Shown here piece by piece: positions 806 to 58,539 of a stretch of DNA of 58,539 nucleotides. Source of the stretch: a virus; the IMG/VR virus record IMGVR_UViG_3300031857_000203, positions 1 through 58,539 of that record; one strand, given 5' to 3'. The position numbers and the translations under genes are program-made. The notes beneath the pieces were generated by a model. The model had not been told where the DNA came from, did no database searches, and saw only the letters and a program-made list of their open reading frames with translations. Every line of letters starts with the position of its first letter. Within the stretch, counting starts at the first letter, position 1.

Positions 806-816
806 TCGGGAACCTA

Positions 817-868: not shown

Positions 869-889
869 AGATCAGTGAAGGATAGCGAA

Positions 890-2066: not shown

Positions 2067-2075
2067 GGAAAGATG

Positions 2076-2127: not shown

Positions 2128-2149
2128 TCAACAGAGAAGGAACAGAGAA

Positions 2150-2419: not shown

Positions 2420-2459
2420 ACAGTGGGGCTTCGGCCCATACAACTACAGAGAAGACATC

Positions 2460-2687
2460 ATGCTGTACGGATACATCTCCTCCTTCGACCCCGACAGGCC
2501 CGAAACCCCCGAAGAGCTTGAGTTCACTACCATCATCAACGGCACCACTCGCACAGTAGAGTACGACGAAGACGGTGCCTTTATCATCAAGATCAACGGT
2601 AAGACAGCAGAAGACGACATCACTGAAGAACAGTGGAGTAACATTGAACAAATGGTTAACTCCAGACTCAGCAATGACTACGACTAA
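2460..2687 (+). CDS. hypothetical acidic protein, 75 aa
   Basis: A small acidic protein (many Asp/Glu, two short beta-like stretches around FTTIINGTTRTVEYD). It overlaps the start of the small terminase gene by 14 nt, so it is translated just before packaging genes. Function unknown. Confidence 0.65.
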   Translation: MLYGYISSFDPDRPETPEELEFTTIINGTTRTVEYDEDGAFIIKINGKTAEDDITEEQWSNIEQMVNSRLSNDYD

Positions 2688-3165: not shown

Positions 3166-4576
3166 TCTAGCTGAAGCATTCCAGCAGCCTGATGTACTGC
3201 AGGCGCTCAAGACACTGCCGCCTGAGAAGCGCCTAGCCTATCTCTGGCGGGCCAACTGGATCGAGAAGGCCCACAGGCACCAGATGCCGCCTCCAGGCGA
3301 CTGGTGGACGATCTGGCTGCTTCTGGCGGGACGCGGTGCAGGCAAGACACGCACAGCAGCAGAGCAGGTAGGTTGGTGGGCCTGGACAGAACCAGGGACA
3401 CGCTGGCTTGTCGGGGCTCCAACTAGTGCTGACGTCAAGGCTACCTGCTTTGAGGGCGACTCGGGATTATTGAACGTTATCCCCGCTCCACTAATTGCTG
3501 ACTACAACAAGCAGCACCATGAGCTGAAGCTGACGAACGGATCCCTGATCAAGGGCATCCCTGCCAGTGAGCCTGAGCGCTTTCGGGGTCCGCAGTTCCA
3601 CGGGGCATGGCTTGATGAGCTTGCAGCCTGGGAGTACCTGCAAGAAGCCTGGGACCAGATCCAGTTCTCTGTCCGCTTGGGAACCAGAACCCGCATCGTT
3701 GCCACCACCACACCTAGACCCAAAGACCTGATCGTGGAACTGGTGGGCCGTGAGGGTGACGATGTAGCCCTGACGACTGCCAGCACCTACGCCAACCTTG
3801 CGAACCTAGCCCCGTCATTTCAGAAGCAGATCCTGCAGTACGAGGGGACGAAGCTAGGCAGGCAGGAGATCCACGCTGAGATCATCGATCCTGAAGAGGG
3901 CGGGATCGTCCAGCGCAGCATGTTCAAGCTGTGGCCTGATGGCAAGGCCTTCCCTAAGTTCGAGTACATCGTCCAGTCCTACGACTGCGCCACCTCAGAG
4001 AAGACTCAGAATGATCCTACTGCCTGTACGACCTGGGGAGTCTTTAAGCCACTTGACGGGCCTATGTCAGCGATGCTTATTGATTGCTGGCAGGAGAGGA
4101 TGCAGTATCCGGACCTGCGACCGAAGGTTATCGACGAGTACGAGACGATCTTCGGTGAAGGCAAAGAGAAGAAGCGCGTGGATCTCATACTCATCGAGGA
4201 CAAGTCCGCAGGCATTTCTCTGATCCAAGACCTGCAGAGGGCGCACCTTCCGGTGAGGGGATACAACCCAGGAAGAGCCGATAAGCTGCAGCGCCTGAAC
4301 ATCGTCTCCAACATCATCGCAAGGGGCAGGGTGTGGATCCCTGAGTCTTCCAATAGGAAGGGCTACGTGAGGGACTGGGCGGAAGGCTTTGTCAGCCAGA
4401 TCTGCTCGTTCCCTGAGACGACACATGATGATTTTGTGGACAGTGCCTCGATGGCCCTGCGGTTCTTGCGGGACGCTGGCTGGCTCGAGGTTGATCCGCC
4501 TCCGCGGGATGACTGGGATGAAGAAGACTATGCAGACTCTGGCAGACAAAGAAGAACCAACCCCTACGCCGTCTGA
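3158..4576 (+). CDS. terL: terminase large subunit
   Basis: A 472-residue packaging motor. ATPase domain: Walker A AGRGAGKT (57-64), Walker B WLDE (151-154), coupling motif ATTTP (182-186). Nuclease domain (RNase H-like): acidic residues in YDCA (D276), LIEDKS (E347, D348) and HDDFVDS (D424, D425). Length and order are those of the classical Terminase_6/17-type large subunits. It binds the portal and translocates and cuts the DNA. It is coupled to terS by overlap and followed by a small Cys/His protein. Confidence 0.95.
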   Translation: MSDLAEAFQQPDVLQALKTLPPEKRLAYLWRANWIEKAHRHQMPPPGDWWTIWLLLAGRGAGKTRTAAEQVGWWAWTEPGTRWLVGAPTSADVKATCFEGDSGLLNVIPAPLIADYNKQHHELKLTNGSLIKGIPASEPERFRGPQFHGAWLDELAAWEYLQEAWDQIQFSVRLGTRTRIVATTTPRPKDLIVELVGREGDDVALTTASTYANLANLAPSFQKQILQYEGTKLGRQEIHAEIIDPEEGGIVQRSMFKLWPDGKAFPKFEYIVQSYDCATSEKTQNDPTACTTWGVFKPLDGPMSAMLIDCWQERMQYPDLRPKVIDEYETIFGEGKEKKRVDLILIEDKSAGISLIQDLQRAHLPVRGYNPGRADKLQRLNIVSNIIARGRVWIPESSNRKGYVRDWAEGFVSQICSFPETTHDDFVDSASMALRFLRDAGWLEVDPPPRDDWDEEDYADSGRQRRTNPYAV

Positions 4577-29436: not shown

Positions 29437-31500
29437 ATGACGGCTCTGTACCACGCTTATTCCCAGACGGTTGCGGATGGGACAGCGACATCTGTCGTTC
29501 GTCCTAGCGACTGGAATTCCGCCCACGTTCAAGGCCAGACAATCTCTGGTAATACGGCGGGGTTTTCGTCTTTTACGGGGACGAACATCGTCCTCCAGGG
29601 TGGCAATAACGTCACGCTGAGTGCGGCGACTGCGGCGGGTGCAGCAACAATCATCATCAGCGGGGCGAACACTGTCGCGCAGACGGTACAGACCCAAGCG
29701 TCAGGTGCGATAGCCGGGACCGGGTTTACCTCCACGACGACAGCGGGAACCGCTGTTACGGCAACGATGGGGACAAACGGCCTGTCAATGGCCGTCCCTG
29801 CGTTCATCACGACCTTTGCAAATGACCTAACTTCAGGTCGAGCAGGGACCGGCTTTACGAGCACTACGACGGCTGGTACAGCGATTGTTGCCACCCAAGG
29901 GACCAACGGCCTTTCAATGGCTGTTCCGGCCTACATCACCACCTTCGTCAATGATTTGACCTCTGGACGGGCTGGGACGGGATTCACTTCGACAACAACA
30001 GCAGGAACAGCAATTACTGCTGCGCTGGGCACCAATGGCCTTTCCATGGCCGTCCCTGCGTTTATAACAACCTACGTTGGGCAAACAACCCAGACTCAGC
30101 CAGCAGGCAACATCGCTGGGGCGGGGTACACCAGCACCACACAAGCCGGGTCTACGGTAGGCATCACGCAGAACAGCAACGGGCTGTCTGCTGCTTGGCC
30201 TGCGTTTATCACCACAGCTACGCAGTCCGTTCAAACGCAAGCCTCTGGCGCGATAGCTGGTACTGGCTTCACCTCGACCACCACGGCTGGTACGGCGATC
30301 ACTGCTGCGCTAGGGACTAACGGACTGTCAATGGCAGTCCCGCAGTACATAACGACCTTCGTTAACGACCTGACGTCAGGCCGAGCCGGGACAGGCTTCA
30401 CCAGCACAACCACGGCGGGTACGGCCATCGTCGCCACGCAAGACACAAATGGCCTCTCAATGGCGGTGCCTGCGTACATCACGACTTACGTTAACGACCT
30501 GACCTCGGGTCGGGCGGGTACGGGAACCACGTTAGCAACAACCAACATCAACGCTACATTGAGCGCGAACACCAACGGGGTGGCGCTGTCTATGAGTGTT
30601 CCAGATGTGGACTTTAATGCGTGGAACCTGCTGGGCAATACCTCCGGAACCACTGCTACCACGGTCACTACGCAAGGGGCGCTGTATTTTCACGGTGGCA
30701 ACAACATCACCTTGAGCGGGAACTCCAACACCATCGTCATTTCTGCTGGTGCAGGTGGTGGTACAACCAACCAGACGGGGCCAAACATCGCTGTTGTAGG
30801 CTCGACCATCACATCCGGCACGGTAGTCTTTAGCAACTCCAACGGCGTAAGTTTTGGCCTCAACGGCAGTACGTTGACGGCTTCAGTTCTGCCAAACCCT
30901 GTGCGTGACGGCTGGGCTCCGTATAGTGACCTTGAATTGGTCGCAGGCCAACAAGGGCAAGGAACCTTGTACTTTGAGCCTGAGCATAGCCCTAATTTTA
31001 TTCAAGACCGAGTTGGAATCCCAATTGCGTACACCAACGCCACAAACTCCACCGGGTCAGTAACGCTTAGTTACTATATAGGCTTATACACACAGAACGT
31101 CAGTACTCTTTCACTTGCAAGTAGCACTTCATTTAGCACTGGTTTTACGTTTTCTGGAACCGTTGCAAGCTACTCGTTGTTTTCGGGAATGCGGCTGCTT
31201 ACTATCCCGTGGTCATTGACGTTAGCCGATCAGGAAGTTTACATTGGTCAGCTTTCCAGAACCACAACAGGCGGCAACAACGCCTCTATTTCTCAGATGT
31301 TAGTTACCAACATCAATAGCAATTTTGTTGGTTTCTTCGGTCAATCTCACAACACCACGCAGCAGTTTACGCAAGGGCAAGGTGTGTACTCAACAACTAC
31401 AGCAGCACTGCCAAACAGTGTGGCGTTTAGTCAGATTCGTGGATCTGATTCTCTGGCGTTCCGCGCCCCTGCAATTAGGTTCATCAACAGCACGGTGTAA
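29437..31500 (+). CDS. repeat-containing tail fibre, 687 aa
   Basis: The N-terminal ~85 residues have an attachment-type start (TALYHAYSQTVADGT) and a beta region. Residues about 85-365 hold seven repeats of roughly 36-43 residues (core GRAGTGFTSTTTAGTA-x-x-A-x-x-x-TNGLSMAVPAYITT). C-terminal 320 residues, with SNGVSFGLNGSTLTASVLPN at the junction, form a likely receptor-binding tip. The repeats are conserved in protein but recoded in DNA (see findings). Probably the host-recognition fibre. Confidence 0.7.
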   Translation: MTALYHAYSQTVADGTATSVVRPSDWNSAHVQGQTISGNTAGFSSFTGTNIVLQGGNNVTLSAATAAGAATIIISGANTVAQTVQTQASGAIAGTGFTSTTTAGTAVTATMGTNGLSMAVPAFITTFANDLTSGRAGTGFTSTTTAGTAIVATQGTNGLSMAVPAYITTFVNDLTSGRAGTGFTSTTTAGTAITAALGTNGLSMAVPAFITTYVGQTTQTQPAGNIAGAGYTSTTQAGSTVGITQNSNGLSAAWPAFITTATQSVQTQASGAIAGTGFTSTTTAGTAITAALGTNGLSMAVPQYITTFVNDLTSGRAGTGFTSTTTAGTAIVATQDTNGLSMAVPAYITTYVNDLTSGRAGTGTTLATTNINATLSANTNGVALSMSVPDVDFNAWNLLGNTSGTTATTVTTQGALYFHGGNNITLSGNSNTIVISAGAGGGTTNQTGPNIAVVGSTITSGTVVFSNSNGVSFGLNGSTLTASVLPNPVRDGWAPYSDLELVAGQQGQGTLYFEPEHSPNFIQDRVGIPIAYTNATNSTGSVTLSYYIGLYTQNVSTLSLASSTSFSTGFTFSGTVASYSLFSGMRLLTIPWSLTLADQEVYIGQLSRTTTGGNNASISQMLVTNINSNFVGFFGQSHNTTQQFTQGQGVYSTTTAALPNSVAFSQIRGSDSLAFRAPAIRFINSTV
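29689..30528 (+). repeat. protein-level repeats with recoded DNA
   Basis: Seven in-frame repeats within the fibre gene. Comparing the 22-codon stretch at 29821-29886 with 29950-30015, the amino acids are identical yet 18 of 22 codons differ. A third copy at 30364-30429 again uses different codons. Unequal crossing-over would leave similar DNA, so the pattern suggests selection against direct DNA repeats or long-term purifying selection. Confidence 0.85.
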
Positions 31501-32947: not shown

Positions 32948-34402
32948 ATGGCCGCGGCATTTCAGAGTAATGCGTTTCAGAGTGACGCATTCCAAGCAGA
33001 TGCTGCGGTACAAAACCTATCGCCATCGCTGTTCACTAACAGCAATGATTTCTACACACCGACAGTAACCGCTGGAACAGTTGATCTCCAGCCTAGTCGG
33101 TACGACAACACAAACACCTTCTACGCGGCGACTGTTGCAGCCAGCAACACGCTTACGCCTGCGCTTTACACAAACACTAATACCTTCTACACGCCAGTAG
33201 TTGCGTCAAGTAATGAACTACTGCCTGCAAGGTTTGACAACGCCAATGCGTTCTATGCGCCTACTGTCTCGGTCAGCAATGATCTAGCTCCGGCTCTCTA
33301 CACCAATACACAGACCTTCTATTCGGCAACTGTTAGCGCCAGCAACGAACTGCTGCCATCGCTGTACACGAATAGTCAGACCTTCTACTCTCCTACAGTC
33401 TTCCAGTTTACTGAGCTATTGCCGTCGCTGTACGTCAATACGCAGACGTTCTATTCGCCCACAGTCACGTTCAGCAATACGCTGCTGCCTGGGCTATACA
33501 CAAACACAAACACCTTCTACTCAGCAACGGTTGCGAGTTCATATGCTCTTAGCCCGTCGCTGGTAACGAATACTCAGAATTTCTACAGCGCTACGGTACA
33601 GGCAGAAAATGAACTGCTGCCGAGCCTTGTAGTCAACTCGCAGACGTTCTACAGCGCGACTGTCAGCACAGACATCACGCTGCTGCCTTCGCTCTACACG
33701 AACACTCAGACGTTCTATTCGCCTGTCGTTGAGGCCTCGAATGAGCTTCTGCCTGCGCTGTTCACCAACAGCAATACGTTCTACACGCCTACGGTTGTTG
33801 GGACGTACAGCTTAGATCCAGCAAGGTACAACAACACCCAGACGTTCTACTTAGCGTCTGTCACTGCTCAGAGTTTCCTGAATCCGGGGCTCTACACGAA
33901 CCCCAACACGTTCTATTCGCCAACTGTTGACACAAGGTTAGTTCCTGCGCTGCTTGTAAACAGTCAGGTCTTCTATTCACCAACGGTTGCGCCTGGGCCA
34001 GTTAATCTGCTGCCGTCGCTGTACGTCAACACTAACCAGTTCTTCTCTGCTGCGGTAGAACTTGGGACGTACACGATCACCAGAGCCCAGGCCAGATTGC
34101 TGCAGCAGATATACAAGCTCAATGGGCTTGACTCGACACCGTTGACTGTGGGCACTAACTTCAGAGCGGTAGATGACATCGTTCAATCCATCGCAGAAGC
34201 TAGGAATGGGACGATAACTGTTGAAACAACTGCTGGTCTGACTTACACGACTGACAATCCTGGGGTGATGATTGAAGAGCTGGCGGCTCTGTATGCCCTG
34301 ACGGATACGTTGCAGGTGACTCGCAACGGCAGGTTTGTGGGTACGTTGTCTCAGTCCATTGAAACGAACGGGTTCACCACAGTGGTGACGAGGCTGACAT
34401 GA
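32948..34402 (+). CDS. 22-residue repeat virion protein, 484 aa
   Basis: Residues about 24-376 consist of sixteen tandem repeats, mostly 22 residues, with consensus LLPSLYTNTQTFYSPTVSAS plus two. Each holds an Asn-x-x-x-FY core and a Thr-Val strand, so a beta-solenoid or beta-strand ladder is likely. The N-terminus has FQSNAFQSDAFQ triplets. The last ~108 residues are a separate alpha/beta domain (TRAQARLLQQIYKLNGLD ...). I do not recognise a named family. Probably a fibre or appendage subject to the neighbouring GT/MT pair. Confidence 0.65.
   Translation: MAAAFQSNAFQSDAFQADAAVQNLSPSLFTNSNDFYTPTVTAGTVDLQPSRYDNTNTFYAATVAASNTLTPALYTNTNTFYTPVVASSNELLPARFDNANAFYAPTVSVSNDLAPALYTNTQTFYSATVSASNELLPSLYTNSQTFYSPTVFQFTELLPSLYVNTQTFYSPTVTFSNTLLPGLYTNTNTFYSATVASSYALSPSLVTNTQNFYSATVQAENELLPSLVVNSQTFYSATVSTDITLLPSLYTNTQTFYSPVVEASNELLPALFTNSNTFYTPTVVGTYSLDPARYNNTQTFYLASVTAQSFLNPGLYTNPNTFYSPTVDTRLVPALLVNSQVFYSPTVAPGPVNLLPSLYVNTNQFFSAAVELGTYTITRAQARLLQQIYKLNGLDSTPLTVGTNFRAVDDIVQSIAEARNGTITVETTAGLTYTTDNPGVMIEELAALYALTDTLQVTRNGRFVGTLSQSIETNGFTTVVTRLT
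33017..34075 (+). repeat. sixteen tandem ~66-bp coding repeats
   Basis: Sixteen in-frame units of 20-23 codons. The aromatic pair in TFY, the Asn two to four residues before it and the final hydrophobic strand are nearly invariant, while bases and spacer residues vary from unit to unit. It is coding throughout, so it is not a CRISPR array or minisatellite. Confidence 0.85.
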
Positions 34403-37700: not shown

Positions 37701-40700
37701 CGGGGCTCAACGCAGGGGCTGTTGCGCAGATTCAGGCGGATACAGATAGAGAAGCCACCACGTTTGATGGCAGCACCTTCGGCAGCATGAAGTCTGCTAT
37801 GGAGGCCGCTAAGGCTCAGGGCTACAACAACTTCATTGGGCCTGATGGCAAGACCCACATGGTGTCTTCGCCTGTTGTGGCGATCCAGGCTGGGGCTTTT
37901 GACGGGACTACGTTCGGTTCTGTAAAGGCGGCAAGTGATGCCGCTAGAGAGGCCGGGAAGACGACCTTTGTCGGGCCTGACGAGCAGCACTACATGGTTC
38001 TAGATCCTGCCCAAGAAGGCGCGATCAAAGACGAGATTAAGCAGACTAAGACGTTTGGGCAGGCGTTTGCTGATGCGCGGGCAAAACTTGGCCCAGGCAG
38101 AACGTTTGAGTGGACGAACCCTGAGACTGGACAGACGAAGACCTACAACACCTACACCGCTACGGAACTGTACGACGGCTCCCGTGCGGGATCTAAGACT
38201 GATGCTGCCATCCTTGCCCACCAGAACGGCAAGACGATGTTCCAGTACGACGGAAAGATTTACAACATCCCTGCTGGCTCACTGGATAACGTAGGCAATC
38301 AAAACCGTGCAGAAGCTAGGCGTTTGGTTGAGGCTAATGCAACGGCTATCAGCAACGAGCAAGCCGCGGCTCTTGAGAAGAAGCTGCAGACCAAGAAGCT
38401 GGGTGACTTGGATGGTGTTTCTGGGGCCGTAGCTAATCTGTTTGGCTTGTCCTTGCAAGGCTTGGGAGAACAAGTCCGCTACTTTGCGACTGCCGGCGCT
38501 GCTGCTACTGGCGGGAACATCAACAACTATTACGACCGAGTTGGCGCTGCAATGGTGCAACTTGGTGAGTCGTTGACGTCTAGGTCATTGGATCAACAAA
38601 AGTCCTCCGCTGAAGCGGGGATGCGTGATATTGCCAAGGCAGACTTCAAAGATCAACCTTTGATGTTTGCAAAACTTGCAAGAGACAATTTTGGTTGGTG
38701 GCTGTCAGAAAACGGCAAAGAGATTGTTCAGGAGTTTGCTCCGTATGCTACGGCTATTGGAGTCGGTACTATCGCTGCGACAGGTGGAGCATCTGCCCCA
38801 GTAGTTGCTACTCTGGCCGCAGGTTCATCCGCAATTGTTGATGGGCTTGAAGCATTTGGGTCAGGTGTAAAAGAAGCATACGAAACCCTCAGGAAGCAGG
38901 GCGTACCAGAAGAGTACGCAAGATCACAGGCCATAAAGAATGGTTTGATGCACGCGCTAGTTGTTACGCCAGTTGAGTTTCTTGCAGACAAACTGACTCT
39001 TGGCGCTTTGACCTCTAGCCTGACAGGCGGCATCAAAGCCTACATGGCGAAGAACCTGCAGGCCACAGTTGCGCAGACGGTAGGTGAATGGATAGAAACT
39101 GTTGGTCAAGGGCTTTCTACGAAGATCACCACCCTTGACCGGGCGATGACCGTAGATGACCTCAAGCAAATCAATGTTGAATCTATATTTGCAATGTCTC
39201 TTGGAGGCGGTACTACTGCGTCTATTCTTGCTGGTGGCGCTGTTGTTGATTCTGCGGTAGTCGCAAAGGACAAGCTGGGTCAGAACGTCACTCTGCAAGA
39301 ACTGTTGAGTGGTACGCGAGATGTTGATCTCAACACTCTGAACCCGAACGCCGTAATTGGACAAAACGCACAAGGCCAGAACGTTACTCTTGGGTCGCTG
39401 TCCGCTGTAGCGATTGATCAGGGCTTCACGCCTGCAACGCTAAACGAGTCGTTGCCTAGTTCGTTCACAACGGACAACAACATTGTTCTGAGCCGCGATG
39501 CGCTGGGTAATGACATCACTTTGGGAGATGTGTTCTCGGGTCAGACTCCTGCGGAGCAAGCCCGTACAGTCATTCAAGATTATGTTGGCCTGGGACTGAC
39601 TGCCAAGACTCCGACAAACCGTGTAGTTGCTGTCAATCCTGATGGGACCGTAACCGTTGCTGATCAAACAGGCAACTCAACAACTGTACGAGCTGAGACA
39701 GACCTAAAAGTAGGCGATTCAGTCAATGTTGATCCCAATCGTGGGACGGTGTCCCTTGCGACTTCTCAGGTTGTTTCTGTTGATAGCGCCAACAACACTG
39801 CGACTGTTAAGAGTGAAGATGGCGCCACCAGGGTGGTCTCAACAACTGGTGACGTCAAGGTTGGCGACACAGTAAACACCAACCAAGTCAGCAACACCGC
39901 AACGGTTGCTTCTACTGCAGGGGCAACGACAGGTACTGCTGGAGCTACTACTGGGTCTACTGTAGGTACGGTTGTTGACACTGCAGGCAGCGGAACTGTT
40001 GTTGACACTACAGGCGCCACTACGGGTGCTACTGCAGGTGCTACTACAGGTGCTACTGCTGGGGCCACCTCTGGTGCGGCAACTGACACTACAGGTGCTA
40101 CTGTAGGAACTGTTGTTGACGCGGTAGCTGACACTGCAGGTGCCACTAATGGCGCTACTACTGGCGCTACTGCTGACGCGGCAGGATCTGACACTACAAG
40201 TGGTGCGGACATAACGGCTGGCGTTACTGCTGATAGCGCAGCGTCCGACACAACGCAGAACACTGGGACAGTAATTGCTGTAACCGACAGTGGCGATAAG
40301 GCTGTTGTTGAGCTTTCAGATGGAACTACGGCTGTCGTTGGTACGCCTGGGGGCGTGAATCCGGGAGACTCTGTAACTGTTGACCAGACTACCAACACTG
40401 CCAGCATTACTGGAGGTGGCAATACTGCTGTTACAGACGCGGTGGTGCAGAGCGTCAACACAACTAACGGCACGGCCACGGTTGTGACGGCTGATGGCAC
40501 CAAGACTATCGTTGATACGGGTGGTACGAGTGTTGCGCCTGGGGCTATTGTTAACGTCAACACCAGCACGGCGACTGTTGTTCCTACTGCGGCCCCAGGG
40601 CCTATTGATTCACAAGCTGTAGCAGCACCCGGTCAATATGTAGCGCCTGCTGCTGCTCCGGCGCCTGTATACCCAGTCAATCCTAGAGTTACATCGCAAG

Positions 40701-43700
40701 CTGATCTGAATGCGTATGTTATCAATCGGTACAAGTCTGGCGATACTCCGTCAGATATCTTGATGGATCTCTATTCATTTGGATACACAAGAGACGGCAT
40801 TGGGCCTACTGGGGCTATGCAGGCGCTGACAAACTCAGTCGCCGTTGCTGAAGAGGTCGGTGTTCAGCCTGGAGTGACGAGTGTTGCTGATCTTGGAAGC
40901 TACGTTATTGGTCAACTGTCTGCGGGCAAGACGCTGGATCAGGTTAAGTCAGGCCTTACGTCTCTTGGGTACGCGGCTGATTCAACAGATGTGACTCGGG
41001 CGATTGATGTTGCCAAGGCTAAACGTCCAGACTTCTTCCCGCAGGCTCCAACGCAAAGTGTGGCCGCACCTCAAGTACCGACACAGCAATACAAGGTCTT
41101 GAGCATCTTCCCTGACGAAGGTTTCGCTGTTGCGATGAACTCAAGGGATCAGTCCAGTGTTGCCATGAGGTATGAGCCTGGAGTTCAGGCGGGTACGGTT
41201 GTGCAGTTGCGCCCGCAAGACATTGGTATTCGTGATCCTTTGACGGGTGAGTTGAAGTTTGGGGCTACAACTGGAAGCCTTGCGGTTGTTATCTCCCGCA
41301 ACGGAAACGGCACATATAACGTACAAGATTCCTCTGGGAAGATTTACGCAGTAGCCGCACCTGCGGGTACTGCAATAGATAGCATCATTGAGGTTGATCC
41401 TGTTGCCAAAACAGTTGTTACGGCTGCGGCACCAACTCCTGCGCCTGCTCCTGCTCCGACACCTGCTCCAGCACCTGCAACAATTGCTCTAGACCCGAAT
41501 AAGACGTCCATCGCTCAACTTAATCAGTACATTGATCAGGCCTTGGCTTCTGGAAAGTCATTCGATCAAGTGGCTAATGCAATGCAAGCTGCTGGATACA
41601 GCAGTGCCTACATTGACCAGAAGCGTCAAGATGCCAAGGACGGAACGGCCACGGACGAAACAGATTGGGCCTTGTTTTTTAAGCAGAGAGAAGATCAAGC
41701 AAGACGGGAGGAAGAACTAAGACTGAATCCGCCTGCAGCGCCTACTCAGATTTCTGGTTGGGTGCTTAGTGTTGATGCTGAAAACGCTGTAATTCAAGAC
41801 GGATTTGGGAATAGAACGCTTGTCACTGCATTCCCTGGGATGAAGGTCGGCGGTCAATATACGATTAACCTTCAGAATCAAACGATGACCAACCCGTATA
41901 CGGGGGAGGTTACGTCTCTGACAGGCCCAGCTCCAACTGGTCGGATTGAGGGAAAGATCGTAGATGTAGGCCAGTACGGAGACACCGCAACGGTTGCGTT
42001 AGCAAACGGCAGTGTCGTACAAGTAGCTGCAGGTAATCCTGGGGAAAGTTTCACTTTCGGAGAATCAGTTACGGTTGATACGCAGGCGGGAACCAGATTG
42101 GCGCCTGCGTATAAGGTCACTACCAACCAAGCCACCGTAGTCGCAACAAACGAAACTGGCACCAAGGCGATTGTGGAGTCCCAAGACGGGACCACTGCAA
42201 TTGTTGACGCGCCTTTTGGTGTCACGACTGGTGATACGGTAGCTGTAGACCCTGCGACCAATACTGCGGTCTTGACTACTGAGCCAACCCCTGTAGAGAC
42301 AATTACTGAGCCAGTTACCACGCCATCCGTTGAGCCAACTACTGAGCCGACTGTTGAGCCTTCAACTGTTGTTGCAGTCAATAACGACAACACTTTGGCG
42401 GTTGTTCAGTCTCCTACTGGAGAGACTTCGGTTGTTCAAACATCTCCTGACATCAATGTCGGAGACAGCGTAACTGTTGATCCTGTAACCAACACTGCCA
42501 CGAAGGCAGATGCTGTTGTCAATACAGTTGCCGATACAGCTATTGATTTGACTACAGACAATCAAGCAATCGTAGTCGCAACAAACGACACCGGCACAAA
42601 GGCGATTGTGGAGTCTCCAGATGGGACTACGGCAATTGTTGACACGCCTTCTGGTGTTACGACTGGAGACTCAGTAACTGTTGACTCAACAAACAACACA
42701 GCCACCACAGTTGAAGACACAACTGTGACTGATGCAGCTACACAAACAGATACCACTCAAACTGCAGTAGTTGTTGCTGTCAATGACGATGGCACAAAAG
42801 CTGTTGTTGAGACAAACGACGGCAATGTAAAAGTTGTTGAAACGGTTGACCCTGTTAATACAGGAGATACGGTTTCGGTTGATCCAACAACCAATACGGC
42901 GACCAAGACAGATGTTGCTGTTGATGGCAATCAGGTTGTTAACACCGACACTGGCGTTGCGGTAGACACTGCCACTGGTGTGGCTACAAATCCAAATACG
43001 GGCATTGAGGTAGACACGAACACTGGTGTAGTGGTCAATCCAGATGCGAACACTGCTGTTGATACCAGTGCGAACACCGCAACAACGGTTAATCCAGACA
43101 CAAACACTCAGACAAATGTTGACACCAGCACTGGCACGACGACTACCGTTGATGCCGCCACTGGCACAGAGACTGTGGTTGACCCGACAACAAACACTCA
43201 GACAACCGTTGATCCAAACGCAAATACTCAGACGGCAACTGACGTAACGACGGGGACAACCACAACGGTTGATGCGAACACTGGCACTCAAACGACTGTT
43301 GACCCAACAACCAATACGCAAACAACAACAGACCCGAATGCCAACACGCAGACGAGTGTTGACAACAACACTGGGGTGACTACGACTGTTGATGCAAATA
43401 CAGGCACACAGACCGCAGTTGATGCAGCGACAAACACTCAGACAACCGTTGACCCAAATGCGGGCGTACAAACGACGGTTGATCCAAATGCCAACACTCA
43501 GACCGTCACAGACACGGCTAGTGGCATAACAACAACAGTTGATGCAAACACAGGAACACAGACAACTGTTGATCCAACCAGCAATACACAGACAGCGGTT
43601 GACCTGACAACCAACACTCAAACATCGACTGATGCAGGCACAAAAACAAACATAGATGAGCCTGAAATTCCTCCTGCAGATCCTCGTATCGCCCAATTGC

Positions 43701-52797: not shown

Positions 52798-53141
52798 ACT
52801 GGTACAAGTTTGATTTCAAGGCATACCAGTTGGAGACCTACGGTCTGCCCGATGCCGAAGACCTTGCCTACCGCAGGCTGATGGACCGGTACTACGAGCG
52901 AGAAGGGCCGATCCCCAACAACACAGATGATCTTTGCAGCTCAATCGGGCTTGATTGGGACTGCATCATCCCTGTCCTGATCAAGTTCTTCTTGCTGAAC
53001 GAGCACGATCAGTGGGTCCATGTTGAGTGGCAGTTCGACATTGAGAAGCGACACGAACGGTTGCTCAAGGCGGCAGCCGCAGGCAAGATGGGCGGCAGGG
53101 GCAACAAAAAAGGCTTGCGCCAGCCAGCAGAAGTCAGTTAA
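52794..53141 (+). CDS. DUF1376-type protein, short paralogue, 115 aa
   Basis: WYKFDFKAYQLETYGL, then EDLAYRRLMDRYYEREGPIP and FDIEKRHERLLKAAAAGKMG, form the DUF1376 pattern found in phage replication-region proteins. It lacks the long C-terminal part of the next gene. The second gene has the same core (EEDLAYRRLLDMYYTSEKPIP), so these are tandem paralogues. Perhaps a replication-initiation or regulatory subunit. Confidence 0.7.
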   Translation: MNWYKFDFKAYQLETYGLPDAEDLAYRRLMDRYYEREGPIPNNTDDLCSSIGLDWDCIIPVLIKFFLLNEHDQWVHVEWQFDIEKRHERLLKAAAAGKMGGRGNKKGLRQPAEVS

Positions 53142-53192
53142 AGTGTTGCGAAACCCGGCTAGGTCTGGCTGATCCCCTGACCGAAAAGCGTC

Positions 53193-53240
53193 ACACCTCC
53201 GCCTGCCGTTGGTTTCCTTCAGAGGTGTCGTTAGAGGTGT
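53193..53240 (+). promoter_or_regulatory. possible RNA switch before second DUF1376 gene
   Basis: ACACCTC (53193-53199) is exactly complementary to two copies of GAGGTGT (53222-53228 and 53234-53240). The second copy includes the ribosome-binding site of the gene at 53243, so pairing with copy two would hide it, while pairing with copy one would leave it free. The 101-nt gap holds no ORF. Sequence pairing is seen; function is inferred. Confidence 0.45.
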
Positions 53241-53242
53241 TC

Positions 53243-54013
53243 ATGCATTACTACCAGTTCCATGTCGGGGACTACCTGTCCTCAACCAGCCATCTTTCCA
53301 ACGAGGAAGACTTGGCATATCGACGTCTGCTCGATATGTACTACACCTCTGAGAAGCCAATACCGCTCGATACCCAATGGGTTTCCAGACGGTTGCGAGT
53401 GGCAACCGAGACGGTTGAATCCGTACTGCGAGACTTCTTCGTTCGCACGGAAGAGGGCTACTCAAAGGACCGCTGCCAGCAAGAGATCGAGAGATTTCGT
53501 CAGTTAGCTGAAAGAAACAAGCGAAACGGCAGTCTGGGAGGCAGGCCAAAGAACCCAATGGGTTCCCAATCGGATACCAGTGGCATCCCAGAAGAACCCA
53601 GTCGTAACCCTAACCATGAACCAATAACCAAGAACCAAGAACCAATAGATATAGAACCTAAAGGTTCTTTGTCGGGAAGTGCCTTCCCTCCCTGCCCGCA
53701 AAGAGAGATTCTTTGGCTTTGGAAGGAGAAGCTCCCTCATCTTGCCCAGCCCAGAATCTGGGAGGGCTCCAGGGCTGCTGCCTTGAGGCAGCGCTGGGTG
53801 CAGGCTTCTAAGCCTTCCGCCTTCAACAAAGATGGCTATGCCACGCAAGACGCTGGCTTGGAGTGGTGGGGTTCGTTCTTTGACTACATCGCCAAAGACA
53901 CGAAGTTGTCGAACGGCTTTGAGAGTCAAGGCCGTGTCTGGAAGCCAGACTTGGAGTGGGTGGTGAACGCCACGAATTTTCAAAAGATCATTGATGGGAA
54001 GTACGACCAATGA
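53243..54013 (+). CDS. DUF1376-containing replication-region protein, 256 aa
   Basis: N-terminal DUF1376 domain (HYYQFHVGDYLSSTSHLSNE, then EEDLAYRRLLDMYYTSEKPIP, RRLRVA; residues 1-90), basic linker (RNKRNGSLGGRPKNP), low-complexity Asn/Pro/Glu part (about 105-145), then a Trp-rich C-terminal domain. Architecture like lambda-O-type or DnaD-like initiators: DNA binding plus helicase-interaction tail. ATG 53243 follows GAGGTG. With no polymerase encoded, the phage presumably recruits host replication. Confidence 0.65.
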   Translation: MHYYQFHVGDYLSSTSHLSNEEDLAYRRLLDMYYTSEKPIPLDTQWVSRRLRVATETVESVLRDFFVRTEEGYSKDRCQQEIERFRQLAERNKRNGSLGGRPKNPMGSQSDTSGIPEEPSRNPNHEPITKNQEPIDIEPKGSLSGSAFPPCPQREILWLWKEKLPHLAQPRIWEGSRAAALRQRWVQASKPSAFNKDGYATQDAGLEWWGSFFDYIAKDTKLSNGFESQGRVWKPDLEWVVNATNFQKIIDGKYDQ

Positions 54014-54294
54014 GCTACGTCAAGCGTGAAACTGAAGGCACCTATACCGCCTACACCTGCAAGTTCTGCAACAACCCTGCCACGGCTGAAGCTCTCTCTA
54101 CCTTGGGTGCGAGATGCTCAAGGTGCTACGAGGTCTACTGCAAAGACATCTGGCCCGCGATGAAGTTTCCTGCAGGGCTTATTCCGCAGACTCACCTTGC
54201 CTGGGCGCACAAGCTGAAGCACCGCCACGATTGCGGTGAGAAGCTGACCGGCATCCAGATCGAGAAGTTTAAGATCGCGTTGAGGTTGGAATGA
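54010..54294 (+). CDS. zinc-ribbon protein, 94 aa
   Basis: CKFCNNPATAEALSTLGARC, then CSRCYEVYC: two CxxC knuckles (about 17-44) in a treble-clef or ribbon. A basic C-terminal half (AHKLKHRHDCGEKLTGIQIE) follows. Likely a nucleic-acid-binding early factor. 4-nt overlaps on both sides. Confidence 0.7.
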   Translation: MSYVKRETEGTYTAYTCKFCNNPATAEALSTLGARCSRCYEVYCKDIWPAMKFPAGLIPQTHLAWAHKLKHRHDCGEKLTGIQIEKFKIALRLE

Positions 54295-54533
54295 ACTGCA
54301 TGGGTGGCTGGTGCCTGAAGAGGCAGAACTGCGTGTACTACTGGCAGGAGAGCGAGATGACCATGGAGAGGCTTTGTGAGCCAGACAACACCGACGCCTA
54401 CCAACGAGTCACAGTTAACTTTCCAGCATCAGTGCCTCGTAAGGTGGCTTATTCAGTACCGATTAAGGGACAGGCAGGCATCTCACGATTGGCTGGAGCG
54501 ATTCAAGAAGCTGCATCCGACATCTACGCTTGA
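54291..54533 (+). CDS. small Cys-rich protein, 80 aa, overlapping another ORF
   Basis: Starts MNCMGGWCLKRQNCVYYWQE, a recognisable phage motif (CMGGWC-x5-C, then ERLCEPG-like). Family members tend to be shorter; the last 40 residues here overlap an ORF in another frame (54376-54597). Start overlaps the upstream stop. The N-terminal half is credible; the C-terminal half may be translated only incidentally. Confidence 0.6.
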   Translation: MNCMGGWCLKRQNCVYYWQESEMTMERLCEPDNTDAYQRVTVNFPASVPRKVAYSVPIKGQAGISRLAGAIQEAASDIYA

Positions 54534-54597
54534 GCGTGACACGAAGAAGCAGTGGTCATTAGGCAACAAAGGAAGAAAAGGAGAGTGGTATGAGTGA
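54376..54597 (+). CDS. conserved hypothetical protein, 73 aa (GTG start)
   Basis: FQHQCLVRWLIQYRLRDRQA, then SHDWLERFKKLH and KKQWSLGNKGRKGEWYE make a pattern I recognise from phage early proteins (DUF7696-like; name to be checked). GTG 54376 is inside the previous gene, so about 158 nt are read in two frames. It overlaps the next gene by 8 nt, ATGAGTGA. Confidence 0.65.
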   Translation: MSQTTPTPTNESQLTFQHQCLVRWLIQYRLRDRQASHDWLERFKKLHPTSTLERDTKKQWSLGNKGRKGEWYE

Positions 54598-55432
54598 TCC
54601 ATTCAAGATTGATGGTCCCACTTGCATTTCATTTTCTGGAGGCAGGACCAGCGCCTACATGCTGTGGCGTGTGCTTCAGAGTAACGATGGTTTGCCGGAA
54701 GAGGCTAAGGTCTGTTTTGCGAATACGGGGAAAGAAGATGAGGCAACGCTGAGGTTTGTAGACCGTTGCAGCAAAGAGTGGGGCGTTCCGATTACCTGGG
54801 TGGAGTACGTTGATGCGGAAGAAACCAAAGATCGCTTCCGTGTTGTCACGTTTGAAACCGCCAGCAGGGATGGTGAACCCTTTGAAGCAATCATCCGCAA
54901 GCGCAACTACCTACCTAACCCTGTCAGCCGCTTCTGCACGGTGGAGATGAAGGTCCGCGCAATCCACCGTTATCTGAAAAGCATCGGTTGGACTGAGTGG
55001 GATTTAATGCTTGGCATCCGGGCAGACGAACAGCGCCGACTGGCGAAGATTGGCAATCAAGATTACGGCAAGCATGAAGAGAAAGTTGCGCCTCTTGGTA
55101 AGGTTGGCATAACCAAAGAAATGGTTGGCGAGTTTTGGGCAGCGCAGTCTTTTGATCTTGAACTACCAAACATTAGCGGTGTCACTTATCACGGCAACTG
55201 TGATCTCTGTTACTTAAAAGGTGCAGCGCAGATACAAAGCCTGATAGCGGAGAAGCCTGAGCGTGCGGTGTGGTGGATCAAGATGGAGGCCCTGGCCCTG
55301 GCCTCTGCGCCTTCTGGCGCTAAGTTTTGGACTGACCGCCCTTCTTACGCAGCGATGCTGAAGTTCGCCCAAGAGCAGAGAGATATGTTTGATCAGGACG
55401 AAGAAGCCATTGCGTGCTTCTGTGGAGAGTAA
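54590..55432 (+). CDS. PP-loop ATPase, PAPS reductase-like
   Basis: A 280-residue protein. PP-loop SGGRTS (16-21) binds ATP-type ligands; CFANTGKEDEATLRFVDRC, RFCTVEMKVRAIHRYL, and GIRADEQRR are hallmarks of the PAPS reductase/DndC-like family in phages. Cys in RFCTVEMK, GNCDLCYLKG and the C-terminal CFCGE could hold an Fe-S cluster or metal. Possible roles include sulfur or nucleotide metabolism or DNA modification; no partner genes for phosphorothioation are present. Confidence 0.75.
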   Translation: MSDPFKIDGPTCISFSGGRTSAYMLWRVLQSNDGLPEEAKVCFANTGKEDEATLRFVDRCSKEWGVPITWVEYVDAEETKDRFRVVTFETASRDGEPFEAIIRKRNYLPNPVSRFCTVEMKVRAIHRYLKSIGWTEWDLMLGIRADEQRRLAKIGNQDYGKHEEKVAPLGKVGITKEMVGEFWAAQSFDLELPNISGVTYHGNCDLCYLKGAAQIQSLIAEKPERAVWWIKMEALALASAPSGAKFWTDRPSYAAMLKFAQEQRDMFDQDEEAIACFCGE

Positions 55433-55891
55433 ATGAGACTCTTCATCGGGCTAGACCCCGGAGCAGTCTCTGGTGCATGGGGAGTAGTGAACCATCACGG
55501 TGACTACGTTGCCTGCGGGCCAATACCTAACGAGGGTGGCCGAATCAAGGCAATCCAGTTGCGTGACCAGCTTGGACAAGTAATCGGAAGCAATGACGCG
55601 ATATTCGTGGTCGAGGACGTTCATTCCATGCCGAAGCAGGGGGTAGCCTCAACCTTCACCTTTGCGCGTGCTGTAGGGGCCATAGAAGCCGTTACAGAGC
55701 TATTCCGAGACCCGTGGTACATCGTCCGACCGCAAAGGTGGAAGGCAGACATGGGCGTGACAGCAGAAAAATCCACCAGTTTGGAACTTGCGAGGCAACT
55801 ATGGACGACAGCACCCCTCACCCGCAAAAAAGACCACGGCGTAGCAGAAGCACTGCTGCTGGCGGAGTGGCTCCGCAGACAAGAGTTGTGA
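55433..55891 (+). CDS. RuvC-like Holliday junction resolvase
   Basis: A 152-residue RNase H-fold protein: GLDPG with D8, FVVEDVHS with E61, and KKDHGVAEALLLAEW with D134 and E139 as metal-binding acids. Matches RuvC and phage relatives in size and order. Resolves recombination intermediates before packaging. It begins directly after the PP-loop gene stop and overlaps the next gene by 4 nt. Confidence 0.85.
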   Translation: MRLFIGLDPGAVSGAWGVVNHHGDYVACGPIPNEGGRIKAIQLRDQLGQVIGSNDAIFVVEDVHSMPKQGVASTFTFARAVGAIEAVTELFRDPWYIVRPQRWKADMGVTAEKSTSLELARQLWTTAPLTRKKDHGVAEALLLAEWLRRQEL

Positions 55892-56040
55892 GAGAACCGA
55901 CTTTGCTGGATGTTTTTGCGGCTTTCATCCAACACGCGGTGATCGTTAGCGGCCAGCAGCATGTAACGGCGCAGGATGTCTACGACGCTGCTGAAGGGAT
56001 GTTGAGGGAATCGGAGCGCAGACATGCCAACAGGAACTGA
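55888..56040 (+). CDS. small conserved phage protein, 50 aa
   Basis: REPTLLDVFAAFIQHAVIVS, then YDAAEGMLRESERRHANRN, a helical family common in phage early operons. GTG 55888 overlaps the RuvC-like stop (GTGA). The 3' end is repeated at the window start. Longer in-frame starts such as ATG 55801 are less likely. Confidence 0.7.
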   Translation: MREPTLLDVFAAFIQHAVIVSGQQHVTAQDVYDAAEGMLRESERRHANRN

Positions 56041-56323
56041 ACTGGCGGTGTGTCAGGACATCGAATACCGGCAGAAGATGGGCATCAACAAGTACGGAAC
56101 TACCGTAGCTGAGAACCCATTGGAGTTGCGGGAATGGCTGCAGAACGCCTATGAAGAGGCCCTTGATCTCAGCGTATACTTGAGGAGGTCAATGGAGGAG
56201 CTTGATAAGCATGGGGTACAAACTTGTCGATCTAACAGGAAAGACGTTCAGCAGGCTGACGGTGGTTCAGATGATGCCATCGATCAAGTACGGGCTGACA
56301 TCCAAAAGAAGATGGAAATGTAG
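56024..56323 (+). CDS. 64-aa family protein with altered C-terminus, 99 aa
   Basis: Same family as the gene at 8-202 through residue 61 (ending SMEELD), then 38 different residues read into the HNH insertion. Only the final GTR tripeptide of the left version is lost. Several residues before the junction also differ (NAYEEALDLSVYLRRS versus QAYEEALDMAIYLKRT). Probably still functional, since the core is intact. Confidence 0.65.
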   Translation: MPTGTELAVCQDIEYRQKMGINKYGTTVAENPLELREWLQNAYEEALDLSVYLRRSMEELDKHGVQTCRSNRKDVQQADGGSDDAIDQVRADIQKKMEM

Positions 56324-56801
56324 ATGTGAATGCGGAAAAGAAACTGAGGTTGATACTGGTGGGTTAACTTCAGGCAAAACAAAATCATGTGGGTGCCTGC
56401 ATTCCGAAACTTCTGCAGAAAATGGCATAAAGTCTAGGCATTTAGTGGCGAAGACACAGGCCGCATTTAATTCAATAAAGTCTATATACAAATCAAATGC
56501 AAAAAAACGCAATCTTGTCTGGGGTTTAAGCGATGAATATGCGCTGAGTCTTTTGAATGGAAACTGTTATTTTTGTGGAGATCCCCCGTCAAATTTGTAT
56601 AAGACCACATATTACAATCAAAAATACAATGGTATTGATAGATTGAATAATGATATGGGGTATGCAGAAGAAAACACGGTTTCTTGTTGCAAAGTTTGTA
56701 ATCATGCAAAGCACACGATGGATAAGGACACGTTTCTGAATTGGGTGAAAAAGGTTAATGATCATCAGCGAACGATGGAGGAACTTGATGGAACCAGATG
56801 A
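56211..56801 (+). CDS. homing-type HNH endonuclease, inserted
   Basis: A 196-residue protein. N-terminal zinc-type module (KLVDLTGKTFSRLTVVQ, then WKCRCECG and TKSCGC) shared with the HNH protein at 51019. Catalytic part: CYFCGD, then GIDRLNNDMGYAEENTVSCC and KVCNHAKH, the HNH zinc form. The last ten residues (RTMEELDGTR) are those of the gene at 8-202, so it uses that gene's stop codon. Much more AT-rich than its surroundings. The GGAGG of the upstream 15-bp repeat (56192-56206) lies 12 nt before ATG 56211. Confidence 0.85.
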   Translation: MGYKLVDLTGKTFSRLTVVQMMPSIKYGLTSKRRWKCRCECGKETEVDTGGLTSGKTKSCGCLHSETSAENGIKSRHLVAKTQAAFNSIKSIYKSNAKKRNLVWGLSDEYALSLLNGNCYFCGDPPSNLYKTTYYNQKYNGIDRLNNDMGYAEENTVSCCKVCNHAKHTMDKDTFLNWVKKVNDHQRTMEELDGTR

Positions 56802-57117
56802 CGCAATCGAGTACATCTTTAAGCACGGCAAAAAGTACGCAAAGGCCAAGGCTGAACGGATCTACCTCGAGGAGTTCCGCAAGAGCAAGAAGGCTGTGCT
56901 GATGCAGTACGCACAGTCTGTAGGCCACCAAACATCCGCGGCGCAGGAGCGTGAGGCATACGCCGATCAGGAATACGTTGACCTGCTGCAAGGCCTTAAA
57001 GCCGCTGTAGAGGCCGAAGAAGAGATCAGGTGGGGGTTGGTAGCAGCACAAGCACGCATCGATGTCTGGCGCTCAAGAGAGGCCAGCAGCAGGCAGGAGA
57101 TCAAGGCAGTCCTATGA
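56788..57117 (+). CDS. conserved hypothetical phage protein, 109 aa (right copy)
   Basis: Identical protein to 189-518 with only a few silent base changes. Its GGAGG ribosome-binding site and start codon survive inside the last codons of the inserted HNH gene. In-frame starts further upstream lie in the insertion and are not used as the call. Confidence 0.75.
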   Translation: MEPDDAIEYIFKHGKKYAKAKAERIYLEEFRKSKKAVLMQYAQSVGHQTSAAQEREAYADQEYVDLLQGLKAAVEAEEEIRWGLVAAQARIDVWRSREASSRQEIKAVL

Positions 57118-57404
57118 CAACACTTGCAGAGAAGAAGCACATGAGCAAGGTGGCCGAGCTTGGCTGCTCTGTATGCAGGAGGATGGGACATCCGGGTACG
57201 CCTGCAGAACTCCATCACCCTAGGCATGGTGCAGGCATGGGCAAGAGATCAGGACACTTCAGCGTGATCCCTCTGTGTCCTGAGCACCACCGCGGCAACA
57301 CTGGAGTGCATGGGCTAGGCACGAAGGGCTTCCCGAAGCATTGGGGGTTCACCGAGGAAGACCTGCTGAAGGACACGCTGGAGTTGATTAACCCCACAAA
57401 GTAG
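57114..57404 (+). CDS. Ref-like recombination nuclease (right copy)
   Basis: Same 96-residue protein as 515-805, with all differences synonymous, clustered at about 57185-57240 and 57320-57350. Both haplotypes therefore keep an intact nuclease with its CSVCRR, HHPRHG and CPEHHR motifs. Confidence 0.8.
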   Translation: MTTLAEKKHMSKVAELGCSVCRRMGHPGTPAELHHPRHGAGMGKRSGHFSVIPLCPEHHRGNTGVHGLGTKGFPKHWGFTEEDLLKDTLELINPTK

Positions 57405-57415
57405 TCGGGAACCTA

Positions 57416-57467
57416 TTGATGCCAACTTAAACTATCGCTTACACTAGCATCACTGCGATGTTGCAGT
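57416..57467 (+). promoter_or_regulatory. promoter plus inverted repeat, unit 1 (right copy)
   Basis: TTGATG, 18 nt, TACACT and ACTGC-N6-GCAGT as in unit 1. The spacer differs by one base (ACTATCGCT versus ACTGTCGCT) while boxes and inverted repeat are unchanged. Confidence 0.65.
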
Positions 57468-57488
57468 AGATCAGTGAAGGAAAGCGAA

Positions 57489-57815
57489 ATGAATGCAGCT
57501 CTGACCCCAGCACAAGTTCAGTTCTTCGACGCAGTTGAGCAGTGCGTCAAGATCGACACACTCGGCGCTCTCAACGCCAAGATCGCAGAACTCACCAAGC
57601 AAGCCGATGCCATCAAGGACGAACTCAAGGATGTGGCCTCAATGTCTGGTCAGAAGGTGTTGGTCGGTGCTTCGTATGTTGCCGCTTACACCGAGTCCAA
57701 TCGCTCTACCGTCGATTGGAAGGCTATTGCCAAGGAACTCAACATTCCCGTTGACCTGATCGCTAAGCACACCAAGTCCACCGCGGTGTACAGCATCAAG
57801 ACCACCGCAATCTGA
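57489..57815 (+). CDS. conserved hypothetical early protein, 108 aa (right copy)
   Basis: Allele of 890-1216 with about 22 residue changes, concentrated between residues 10 and 75; the C-terminal KHTKSTAVYSIKTTAI end is unchanged. This is the most divergent intact gene pair of the duplication. Confidence 0.8.
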   Translation: MNAALTPAQVQFFDAVEQCVKIDTLGALNAKIAELTKQADAIKDELKDVASMSGQKVLVGASYVAAYTESNRSTVDWKAIAKELNIPVDLIAKHTKSTAVYSIKTTAI

Positions 57816-57961
57816 TGTACACCAAGCCAGACGGGACCAGAGCACCTAACGCTCCTCCTGTCTGGCCTTTCGGAACAGTCAGGCCCTCAAAGACGCATGA
57901 CGTTCCACCCACAAGGCCAGACCCCATCCCCCACAGCGAACTACCTGAAGGACTATTCTGA
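57815..57961 (+). CDS. small proline-rich protein, 48 aa (right copy)
   Basis: Encodes the same 48 residues as 1216-1362. The base differences found (TTT/TTC, ACG/ACA, and the run CCA ATA CCT versus CCC ATC CCC) are all silent. TGATG junctions on both sides are preserved. Confidence 0.8.
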   Translation: MYTKPDGTRAPNAPPVWPFGTVRPSKTHDVPPTRPDPIPHSELPEGLF

Positions 57962-58158
57962 TGAACACGACACATCGCACCGGCAACGAATGGGTTGACG
58001 GCCTGGACAGGAAGTGGGGCTTCGGCATTGACTTCGCATGCGAAGACATCATCGACGCTCCTTCGTGGATTCCTACGGGCTCAACCAAGGGTTACGAGTC
58101 GCATGTCTTCTCGCATGACTTTCGTCCAGGGACTTGGGGAAGCGGCAAGTATGACTAA
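57961..58158 (+). CDS. conserved hypothetical protein, 65 aa (right copy)
   Basis: Homologue of 1362-1559 with about nine substitutions and the same length. Its stop (TAA) overlaps the start of the next gene (ATG at 58151) because the intervening helix-turn-helix gene is missing here. Confidence 0.75.
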   Translation: MNTTHRTGNEWVDGLDRKWGFGIDFACEDIIDAPSWIPTGSTKGYESHVFSHDFRPGTWGSGKYD

Positions 58159-58387
58159 GGGCGTCATCCTGAACTGGGGTAACAAGACCCCCTGCACCAT
58201 CATCGAGGATCGCAAGACCCTCTTGGTGGTGACGGAAGACATCGCAGGCAAGCCATGTCCTGAAGGAACCAAGAGGTACTTCAAGCGCTACAAGGATCAC
58301 TGGGCAGAGTGCGTCTTCAAGCCAACCACCAACAGGTGGGCTGTTGCAGGAGAGGCGACTCTGGTGATTGACCCTACAAAAAAGTAG
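58151..58387 (+). CDS. conserved hypothetical protein, 78 aa (right copy)
   Basis: Homologue of 1833-2066. It starts ATG ACT AAG GGC: the first two codons are those of the deleted helix-turn-helix gene, replacing the GTG of the left copy. The protein body is nearly the same (YFKRYKDHWAECVFKPTTNR). Confidence 0.75.
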   Translation: MTKGVILNWGNKTPCTIIEDRKTLLVVTEDIAGKPCPEGTKRYFKRYKDHWAECVFKPTTNRWAVAGEATLVIDPTKK

Positions 58388-58396
58388 GAAAAGATG

Positions 58397-58448
58397 TTGA
58401 CCTTCTCTTGAAGGATCGCTTACACTAGCGTCACTGCAATCAAGCAGT
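58397..58448 (+). promoter_or_regulatory. promoter plus inverted repeat, unit 2 (right copy)
   Basis: TTGACC, 18 nt, TACACT (58421-58426), six bases, ACTGC-N6-GCAGT (58433-58448). Same arrangement as the left copy; changes fall between the -10 box and the repeat. Confidence 0.65.
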
Positions 58449-58470
58449 TCAACAGAGAAGGAACAGAGAA

Positions 58471-58539
58471 ATGAACACCACCTACAAGCGCTACACGGTT
58501 CTCGGCATCAGCGACAAGACCGAGTGTGATGTTTGCGGC
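58471..58539 (+). CDS. small zinc-finger-like protein, 5' part (partial)
   Basis: First 23 codons of the homologue of 2150-2419 (MNTTYKRYTVLGISDKTECD), cut by the window end. Sequence to this point is the same as the left copy. Confidence 0.75.
   Translation, partial: MNTTYKRYTVLGISDKTECDVCG

Follow-up and report, generated by a model that had tools for sequence, protein, structure and literature searches.

A PacI-like HNH gene between a foreign and a native copy of one gene end in a phage haplotype points to homing with replacement of the cut gene end

The stretch of viral DNA analyzed here (the window, 58,539 nucleotides, IMG/VR record IMGVR_UViG_3300031857_000203) holds two versions of one region, and in one of them we observed a free-standing HNH endonuclease gene that is preceded by a foreign version of its upstream neighbour's 3' end and followed by the native version of that same end. 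Our preferred explanation, to which we assign a probability of roughly 0.7, is that, in this haplotype, a PacI-like free-standing HNH homing gene invaded the upstream gene at its 3' end, and that homing would exchange the end of the gene that is cut for the allele of the donor. A patch of foreign sequence to the left of the HNH gene is also visible in five other phage lineages. This is an ordinary kind of selfish gene, with an informative and recurrent arrangement. The genes, repeats and haplotype segments that make up the locus lie on the strand shown (+).

The two versions of the region form the ends of the window, the first 2.2 kb being one and the last 2.5 kb the other. Haplotype A, which has the empty site, covers positions 1-2218 and aligns to 56017-58539, and the HNH-containing allele belongs to haplotype B, a branch of the contig at 56144-58539. 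The passage from A to B takes place at an exact copy, in 56017-56143, of the first 127 bp of the window (1-127). As 127 is the usual largest k of metaSPAdes, we read this repeat as a branch of the assembly graph, with haplotype A walked once and a 2.4-kb tail of B entered afterwards. Haplotype A is a self-closing circle of 56,016 bp (window 1-56016), and this closure is probably that of the true genome, the record being an over-walked circle with a 2.4-kb tail from a second haplotype. Since the contig crosses the 127-mer twice (at 1 and at 56017), as a de Bruijn assembler would at a branch, it is doubtful that the contig represents a single molecule, but haplotype B itself is not in doubt. Haplotype B was seen only in the tail of the present contig; its final 109 bp equal A again, and it may rejoin A. 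Past A position 589 the two haplotypes are about 10% diverged, and they may thus differ for other reasons as well. A separate IMG/VR record, L064, carries the uninterrupted, HNH-less allele and matches window positions 53024-56143 and 1-323 at 100% identity. Haplotypes A and B are the empty and the filled allele of one locus.

The B tail or its joins could instead be artefacts that arose when related phages were merged during assembly, and both the double passage through the 127-mer and the return to A in the last 109 bp would fit such an origin. However, the switch point is 48 bp to the left of the repeat that flanks the HNH gene and lies in 127 bp common with A, the joins between patch and HNH gene and between HNH gene and native end are both within the B branch, and the same anatomy is present in isolate genomes. 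Record L144, which comes from another sample than the window (the same one as L064) and is identical to window 210-3515, starts just past the first right-hand SNP, suggesting that more than one haplotype exists there, although the base at that SNP site is also present in HNH-less relatives. We regard a chimera as very unlikely.

The net difference in length between A and B is 583 bp, with the rest of the alignment near the joins ungapped, and a 15-bp element recurs at exactly that distance, as ATGGAGGAGCTTGAT at 56192-56206 and as ATGGAGGAACTTGAT at 56775-56789. Allowing up to 2 mismatches, the element occurs 3 times in the window compared with 0.23 occurrences expected by chance. The first-pass annotation had described this 583-bp insertion with its 15-bp repeat at an overlap of gene end and gene start, a ribosome site on the left available to the HNH gene and one on the right kept for the downstream gene, and all of this holds. 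The left copy contains GGAGGAG (56194-56200), the likely Shine-Dalgarno sequence of the HNH gene, whose own start codon is the ATG at 56211 (spacing 10). The right copy covers the Shine-Dalgarno and start region of the downstream gene (109 aa, 56788-57117, relatives in L145-L223), which has kept its own site at 56777-56790 (GGAGGA at 56777-56782, spacing 5, ATG at 56788) and overlaps the end of any preceding gene by 14 nt. In haplotype A the upstream gene ends in KRTMEELDGTR, the downstream ATG at 189 lies inside that end and GGAGGA is contained in the MEE codons. In haplotype B this native end (56767-56801, identical to A 168-202) is displaced to the right of the endonuclease ORF and fused to it in frame, where it now forms the C-terminal tail and stop of the HNH product. 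As the annotation had also recognized, the HNH frame (56211-56801) closes on the last ten codons and the stop of the interrupted gene, and its product ends in HQRTMEELDGTR. Because the native right-hand sequence begins at 56767, the duplication at the protein level is (Q/K)R(T/S)MEELD and extends beyond the 15 bp. A T4-like RNA hairpin covering the ribosome site of the HNH gene did not stand out from shuffled sequences, and no group I/II intron match (Rfam) was obtained in 55400-57500.

The annotation had implied that the repeat is a single element doubled by insertion, but the two copies are different alleles, most simply a foreign one on the left and the native one on the right. The upstream gene is intact in haplotype A (window 8-202, 64 aa) and in L064, and it is a relative of phrog_11184 (2.7e-18), a family of unknown function; the part of it in B that is homologous to the A product lies at 56024-56206. 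Its last 21 shared codons in B (56144-56206) make up the patch, in which 22 of 63 nt differ from A positions 128-190, leaving 7 codons unchanged, 8 with synonymous changes and 6 with replacements, mostly conservative. The 3,120 bp directly preceding the patch are identical to L064, and the right copy matches A without a mismatch over the 41 bp that start at position 168 and has a single difference in its first 60 bp. None of 60 relatives of the upstream gene could be named as donor of the patch at more than 70% nucleotide identity, and the family is closer to A than to B (mean 67% vs 57%). As the left allele is missing from these relatives (best 70%) and A is nearer to the family, the left patch is most simply foreign and incoming. 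Searches of IMG/VR by HNH protein, upstream gene, downstream gene and junction pattern returned no HNH-containing relative of the locus and no donor of the patch.

These alleles bear on the possibility that the HNH gene inserted in the manner of a transposon, duplicating a short target of which the left copy drifted later, as a direct repeat of 15-23 bp flanking the gene might suggest. Such a duplication would give two identical copies from one target allele, and what we found are different alleles, with divergence on one side in the window. The left copy alone has changed, and the change runs past the repeat, leftward to 56144. Moreover, repeat length is far from constant, ranging from about 21 bp to about 100 bp among the cases, and each pair of copies in Pseudomonas and Lactococcus consists of two natural alleles of HNH-less phages, which strongly disfavours this explanation and makes it, in our view, hardly credible.

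The insertion is not without consequence for the upstream gene. After its identical N-terminal part the B allele reads LDLSVYLRRSMEELD in frame and has no stop there, so that the frame continues for 38 extra codons (56207-56323), in another frame over the HNH gene, to a TAG at 56321-56323, giving a predicted product of 99 aa instead of 64. The annotation had stated that the interrupted gene loses only three residues; GTR is indeed lost, but no stop follows MEELD and the product is extended. Little is broken, but 38 residues are gained, and what the annotation called a near-cost-free design makes better sense as a product of homing that brought in the gene end of a donor. That the interrupted gene is not perfectly restored counts against the explanation we prefer.

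The predicted HNH product has 196 aa, with a zinc-finger-like N-terminal domain and a PacI-like HNH domain at the C-terminus, and from about residue 186 on it consists of the native upstream-gene tail QRTMEELDGTR. Family alignments place a conserved cysteine region at about residues 39-64 and the HNH at 119-167, with the motif string CxxC...NGIDR...GY..N....CCxxCNxxK. PHROG matches to HNH and endonuclease VII families reach 2e-18, and in profile comparisons PacI (3ldy, E=2.2e-8) is the best solved relative, followed by the Gme HNH protein (4h9d, 0.0018). The same two proteins are the top Foldseek matches of a structure model built with an 11-sequence alignment, the match to PacI being weak (E=3.2e-3). 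Pfam gave no match for the HNH protein itself. Together, profiles and model identify the predicted protein as having an HNH / beta-beta-alpha-metal nuclease domain. Its relatives, at 27-46% identity, are present in many phages, and a scan of genome contigs for the HNH returned distant relatives only.

For comparison we used the five lineages among the top protein matches that offer clean pairs of HNH-containing and HNH-less phages (Acinetobacter, Pseudomonas, Lactococcus, Streptomyces and Xanthomonas); Rhizobium offered no clean pair. In each of the six lineages, the window included, mismatch profiles place a foreign patch directly to the left of the HNH gene. Counted leftward from the gene, the patch has 8 differences in 22 bp and then 1 in the rest of 600 in Acinetobacter, 47 in 120 bp and then 3 in Lactococcus, 37 in 145 bp and then 0 to 600 in Xanthomonas, and 13 in 37 bp and then 19 in the rest of 600 in Pseudomonas; in Streptomyces the last 60 bp are 28% different against a background of 11%. 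The right side is clean in five of the six lineages when the window is included: its first 60 bp have no difference in four of the five pairs, and the 7 differences in Streptomyces equal the background of that pair. The native end is kept as a fused duplicate in four of six cases, the left patch being present without a native duplicate in Streptomyces Annadreamy and Xanthomonas phiXaf18. Homologues at unrelated positions with no repeat had been named by the annotation as evidence against its model, and here the outcome was divided, as the positions of relatives are indeed unrelated and the duplicate is missing from two of the five pairs (Streptomyces and Xanthomonas), but the left patch is kept in all five. 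The co-conversion that it had proposed for the left flank is backed by the separate empty allele in L064 and by the patches in these five unrelated pairs, and the six pairs taken together are what co-conversion of flanks would leave behind, as judged from sequence rather than from crosses.

Three of these lineages give an insight into where the two ends come from. In Acinetobacter phi1_092033 and Liucustia, compared with CRR8 and other empty phages, the interrupted end is that of a tail-fibre gene; the left copy reads KFIWTRTA with six synonymous sense-codon changes and an altered stop, and on the right the native ATTTGGACTAGAACAGCATAG forms the HNH gene's own end, KIWTRTA. In Pseudomonas PSA11/PA11 the two copies are of the start of the next gene; the left one resembles the HHBS10_2 allele, the right one equals PPAT, and the start codon there has become GTG. 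The methylase of Lactococcus PhiM1127 has the C-terminus of phi145/Phi40, followed by the HNH gene and then by a displaced C-terminal piece of the PhiL.18 allele. Both alleles of the flanking copies were thus found in HNH-less phages in Pseudomonas and Lactococcus.

It is also conceivable that the gene end was duplicated and its left copy recoded under selection against self-cleavage or against recombination between the repeats, with no foreign donor involved. The Acinetobacter phages are what one would expect of this, since none of the six sense-codon changes alters an amino acid and none of four sampled empty relatives has the left copy's complete codon string, and the patch of the window, too, lacks a donor among its relatives. 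Yet the left copies of the window and of Lactococcus contain amino-acid replacements typical of differences between natural alleles, and natural source alleles are identifiable in two lineages, which leads us to consider recoding rather unlikely. Ordinary homologous or illegitimate recombination between diverged phages might also have moved the HNH gene together with a flank, the enzyme itself having no role. Phage genomes are mosaic, and the upstream gene and a helix-turn-helix-like gene of haplotype A also come and go at overlaps of start and stop. On the other hand, the divergent tract is on the upstream side, is short and abuts the HNH gene in six of six lineages, and it is absent from most pairs of empty phages, so that passive exchange appears quite improbable. 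None of the empty-vs-empty controls gave a significant patch, the nearest being two Pseudomonas empties with the two natural alleles. Against a more distant empty phage, or an empty phage with a donor-like allele, the patch is lost in the background, and close pairs of the recipient type are therefore needed. In a blind survey of 78 HNH loci without empty comparators, which measured peptide duplication between left and right and is far less informative than comparison with an empty site, duplication exceeded the 5% null level in 11 loci compared with 3.9 expected, a mild enrichment indicating that duplication of the gene end is not universal.

From the alleles we infer how cleavage, the position of its site, the direction of transfer, immunity and translation would fit together under homing. 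In a mixed infection the enzyme would cut the intact allele within its gene end, near position 167/168 of haplotype A, and repair would copy from the HNH-containing donor, beginning in shared homology upstream of position 128, so that the recipient would gain first the donor's divergent gene end and then the HNH gene. The right side of the break would be rejoined at or near the cut, and the recipient's native end would survive on the right-hand side of the HNH gene and could there provide this gene's stop codon and, for the gene that follows, a ribosome site and a start. If the native end is retained by rejoining at the recipient's cut, the right-hand junction should roughly mark the cut (A 167/168); the native end would remain there when the cut end is not trimmed back. 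The donor end, differing at many bases, should escape cutting while the conserved part of the protein is kept, and the native copy on the right would be without its left half-site.

For other phage enzymes it is established that they home, that flanks are co-converted and that the donor allele takes the place of the cut sequence (PMC2988022, PMC12724721). Among the closest arrangements known to us is that of the mORF gene hybrids of fungal mitochondria, found in atp6 of Allomyces macrogynus and in atp6, atp9, cox2 and nad3 of Glomus, in which a foreign C-terminus with 64-81% nucleotide but 94-100% amino-acid identity to the reference lies to the left of an endonuclease ORF, and the native C-terminus, near identical to that of relatives, is displaced to its right (PMC3630166). 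The order of foreign C-terminus, endonuclease ORF and native C-terminus is the same as at the locus in the window (PMC3630166). The endonucleases of the mORFs are LAGLIDADG or GIY-YIG enzymes, however, and that of the window is a PacI-like HNH in a tailed phage; furthermore, the phage patches are much shorter, and the native end in the phage is reused as stop and ribosome site for neighbours. The locus is nonetheless best explained as a phage counterpart of the mORF hybrids, as far as can be read from sequence.

The free-standing seg and mob genes of T4 resemble the HNH gene of the window in being free-standing, in co-converting their flanks and in overlapping the upstream gene, as do segC, segF, mobA and mobC, for which coupled translation is probable; the T4 enzymes cut hundreds to thousands of bp away, in contrast to the divergent tract of the window, which abuts the HNH gene, and duplication of a gene end is not mentioned in the parts of that account used here (PMC2988022). 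In T4 Mob proteins the HNH domain comes first, which sets the window protein, with its zinc-finger-like N-terminus and C-terminal HNH, apart from that class. PacI-like HNH genes are rare in Skunavirus and counted among its probable homing enzymes, and the parts of that paper used here describe locations of insertion but not a foreign gene end, which was seen here by comparison (PMC12724721). Two of these phages, PhiM1127 and phi93, carry a relative of the window HNH protein. F-CphI of cyanophage S-PM2 is likewise a free-standing phage endonuclease beside the gene that it cuts, as the window enzyme would be, but it is of the Endo VII type and is self-protected by an intron instead of a foreign gene end (PMC6083498). 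A keyword literature search that covered few subscription papers produced no report of HNH elements in phages that have a duplicated or foreign gene end, an absence that is weak evidence.

A 2026 preprint holds that free-standing homing genes are as a rule confined to intergenic sites, which spares the genes of the host (PMC13405050). Several phage lineages appear to have arrived at a different solution, that of bringing a foreign, working gene end. The arrangement resembles the recoded-rescue principle of engineered gene drives. Tentatively, and with rather less confidence than in the case of the window, we propose that PacI-like HNH genes in tailed phages could form a general class that homes into coding gene ends rather than intergenic sites, that persists because each carries a divergent, uncleavable replacement end (a natural cleave-and-rescue), and that reuses the native end as C-terminal tail and stop of the nuclease and as the next ribosome site. 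The signature would be a short foreign patch on the left, a native right side and a nuclease that often ends on its neighbour's tail. As this signature allows the cut site to be predicted along with carrier immunity, the target sites of many uncharacterized phage HNH genes become directly testable. The signature would also link phage homing to the gene hybrids of fungal mitochondria.

Several further observations were made around these loci. Lactococcus phage Phi40 (L281 and L282 being phi145 and Phi40) has the PhiM1127-type foreign methylase end without an HNH gene and picks up again within the displaced native end, which makes it either a donor-type allele or a scar of element loss. In the IMG/VR phage contig L041 (2820-3840) a possible duplicate of a DNA-ligase-like N-terminus, about 30 aa long and with 58% nucleotide identity, flanks a nuclease-like gene with a zinc-finger domain, perhaps the same phenomenon at a gene start. 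In the uncultured crAss-like phage cr111_1 (L276, 728-2625) an HNH relative divides the gene for a flavin-dependent thymidylate synthase into two ORFs.

The related phages L145, L146 and L147 lack the upstream gene, and in them the gene ahead of it stops right on the downstream start (ESERRHGTR at the junctions in L145 2985-3020 and L146 2402-2437), so that one start codon seemingly took two successive inserts. The stop hidden in GGAACCAGATGA is used by three different genes. Elsewhere in the window, haplotype A has at 1552-1836 an extra 94-aa, possibly helix-turn-helix gene that B does not have; it sits exactly on a stop/start overlap (TATGACTGA), and the next gene starts with GTG in A and with ATG in B. 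A second nuclease-like gene, of the RecA-dependent nuclease family PF16786, lies at 57114-57404 just downstream of the 109-aa gene, where the haplotypes begin to diverge. Repeat arrays are present at 29712-30512, 33016-34059, 39899-40401 and 43056-43641 with spacings of 129, 66, 12 and 30-120 bp, and these probably lie within structural or fibre genes.
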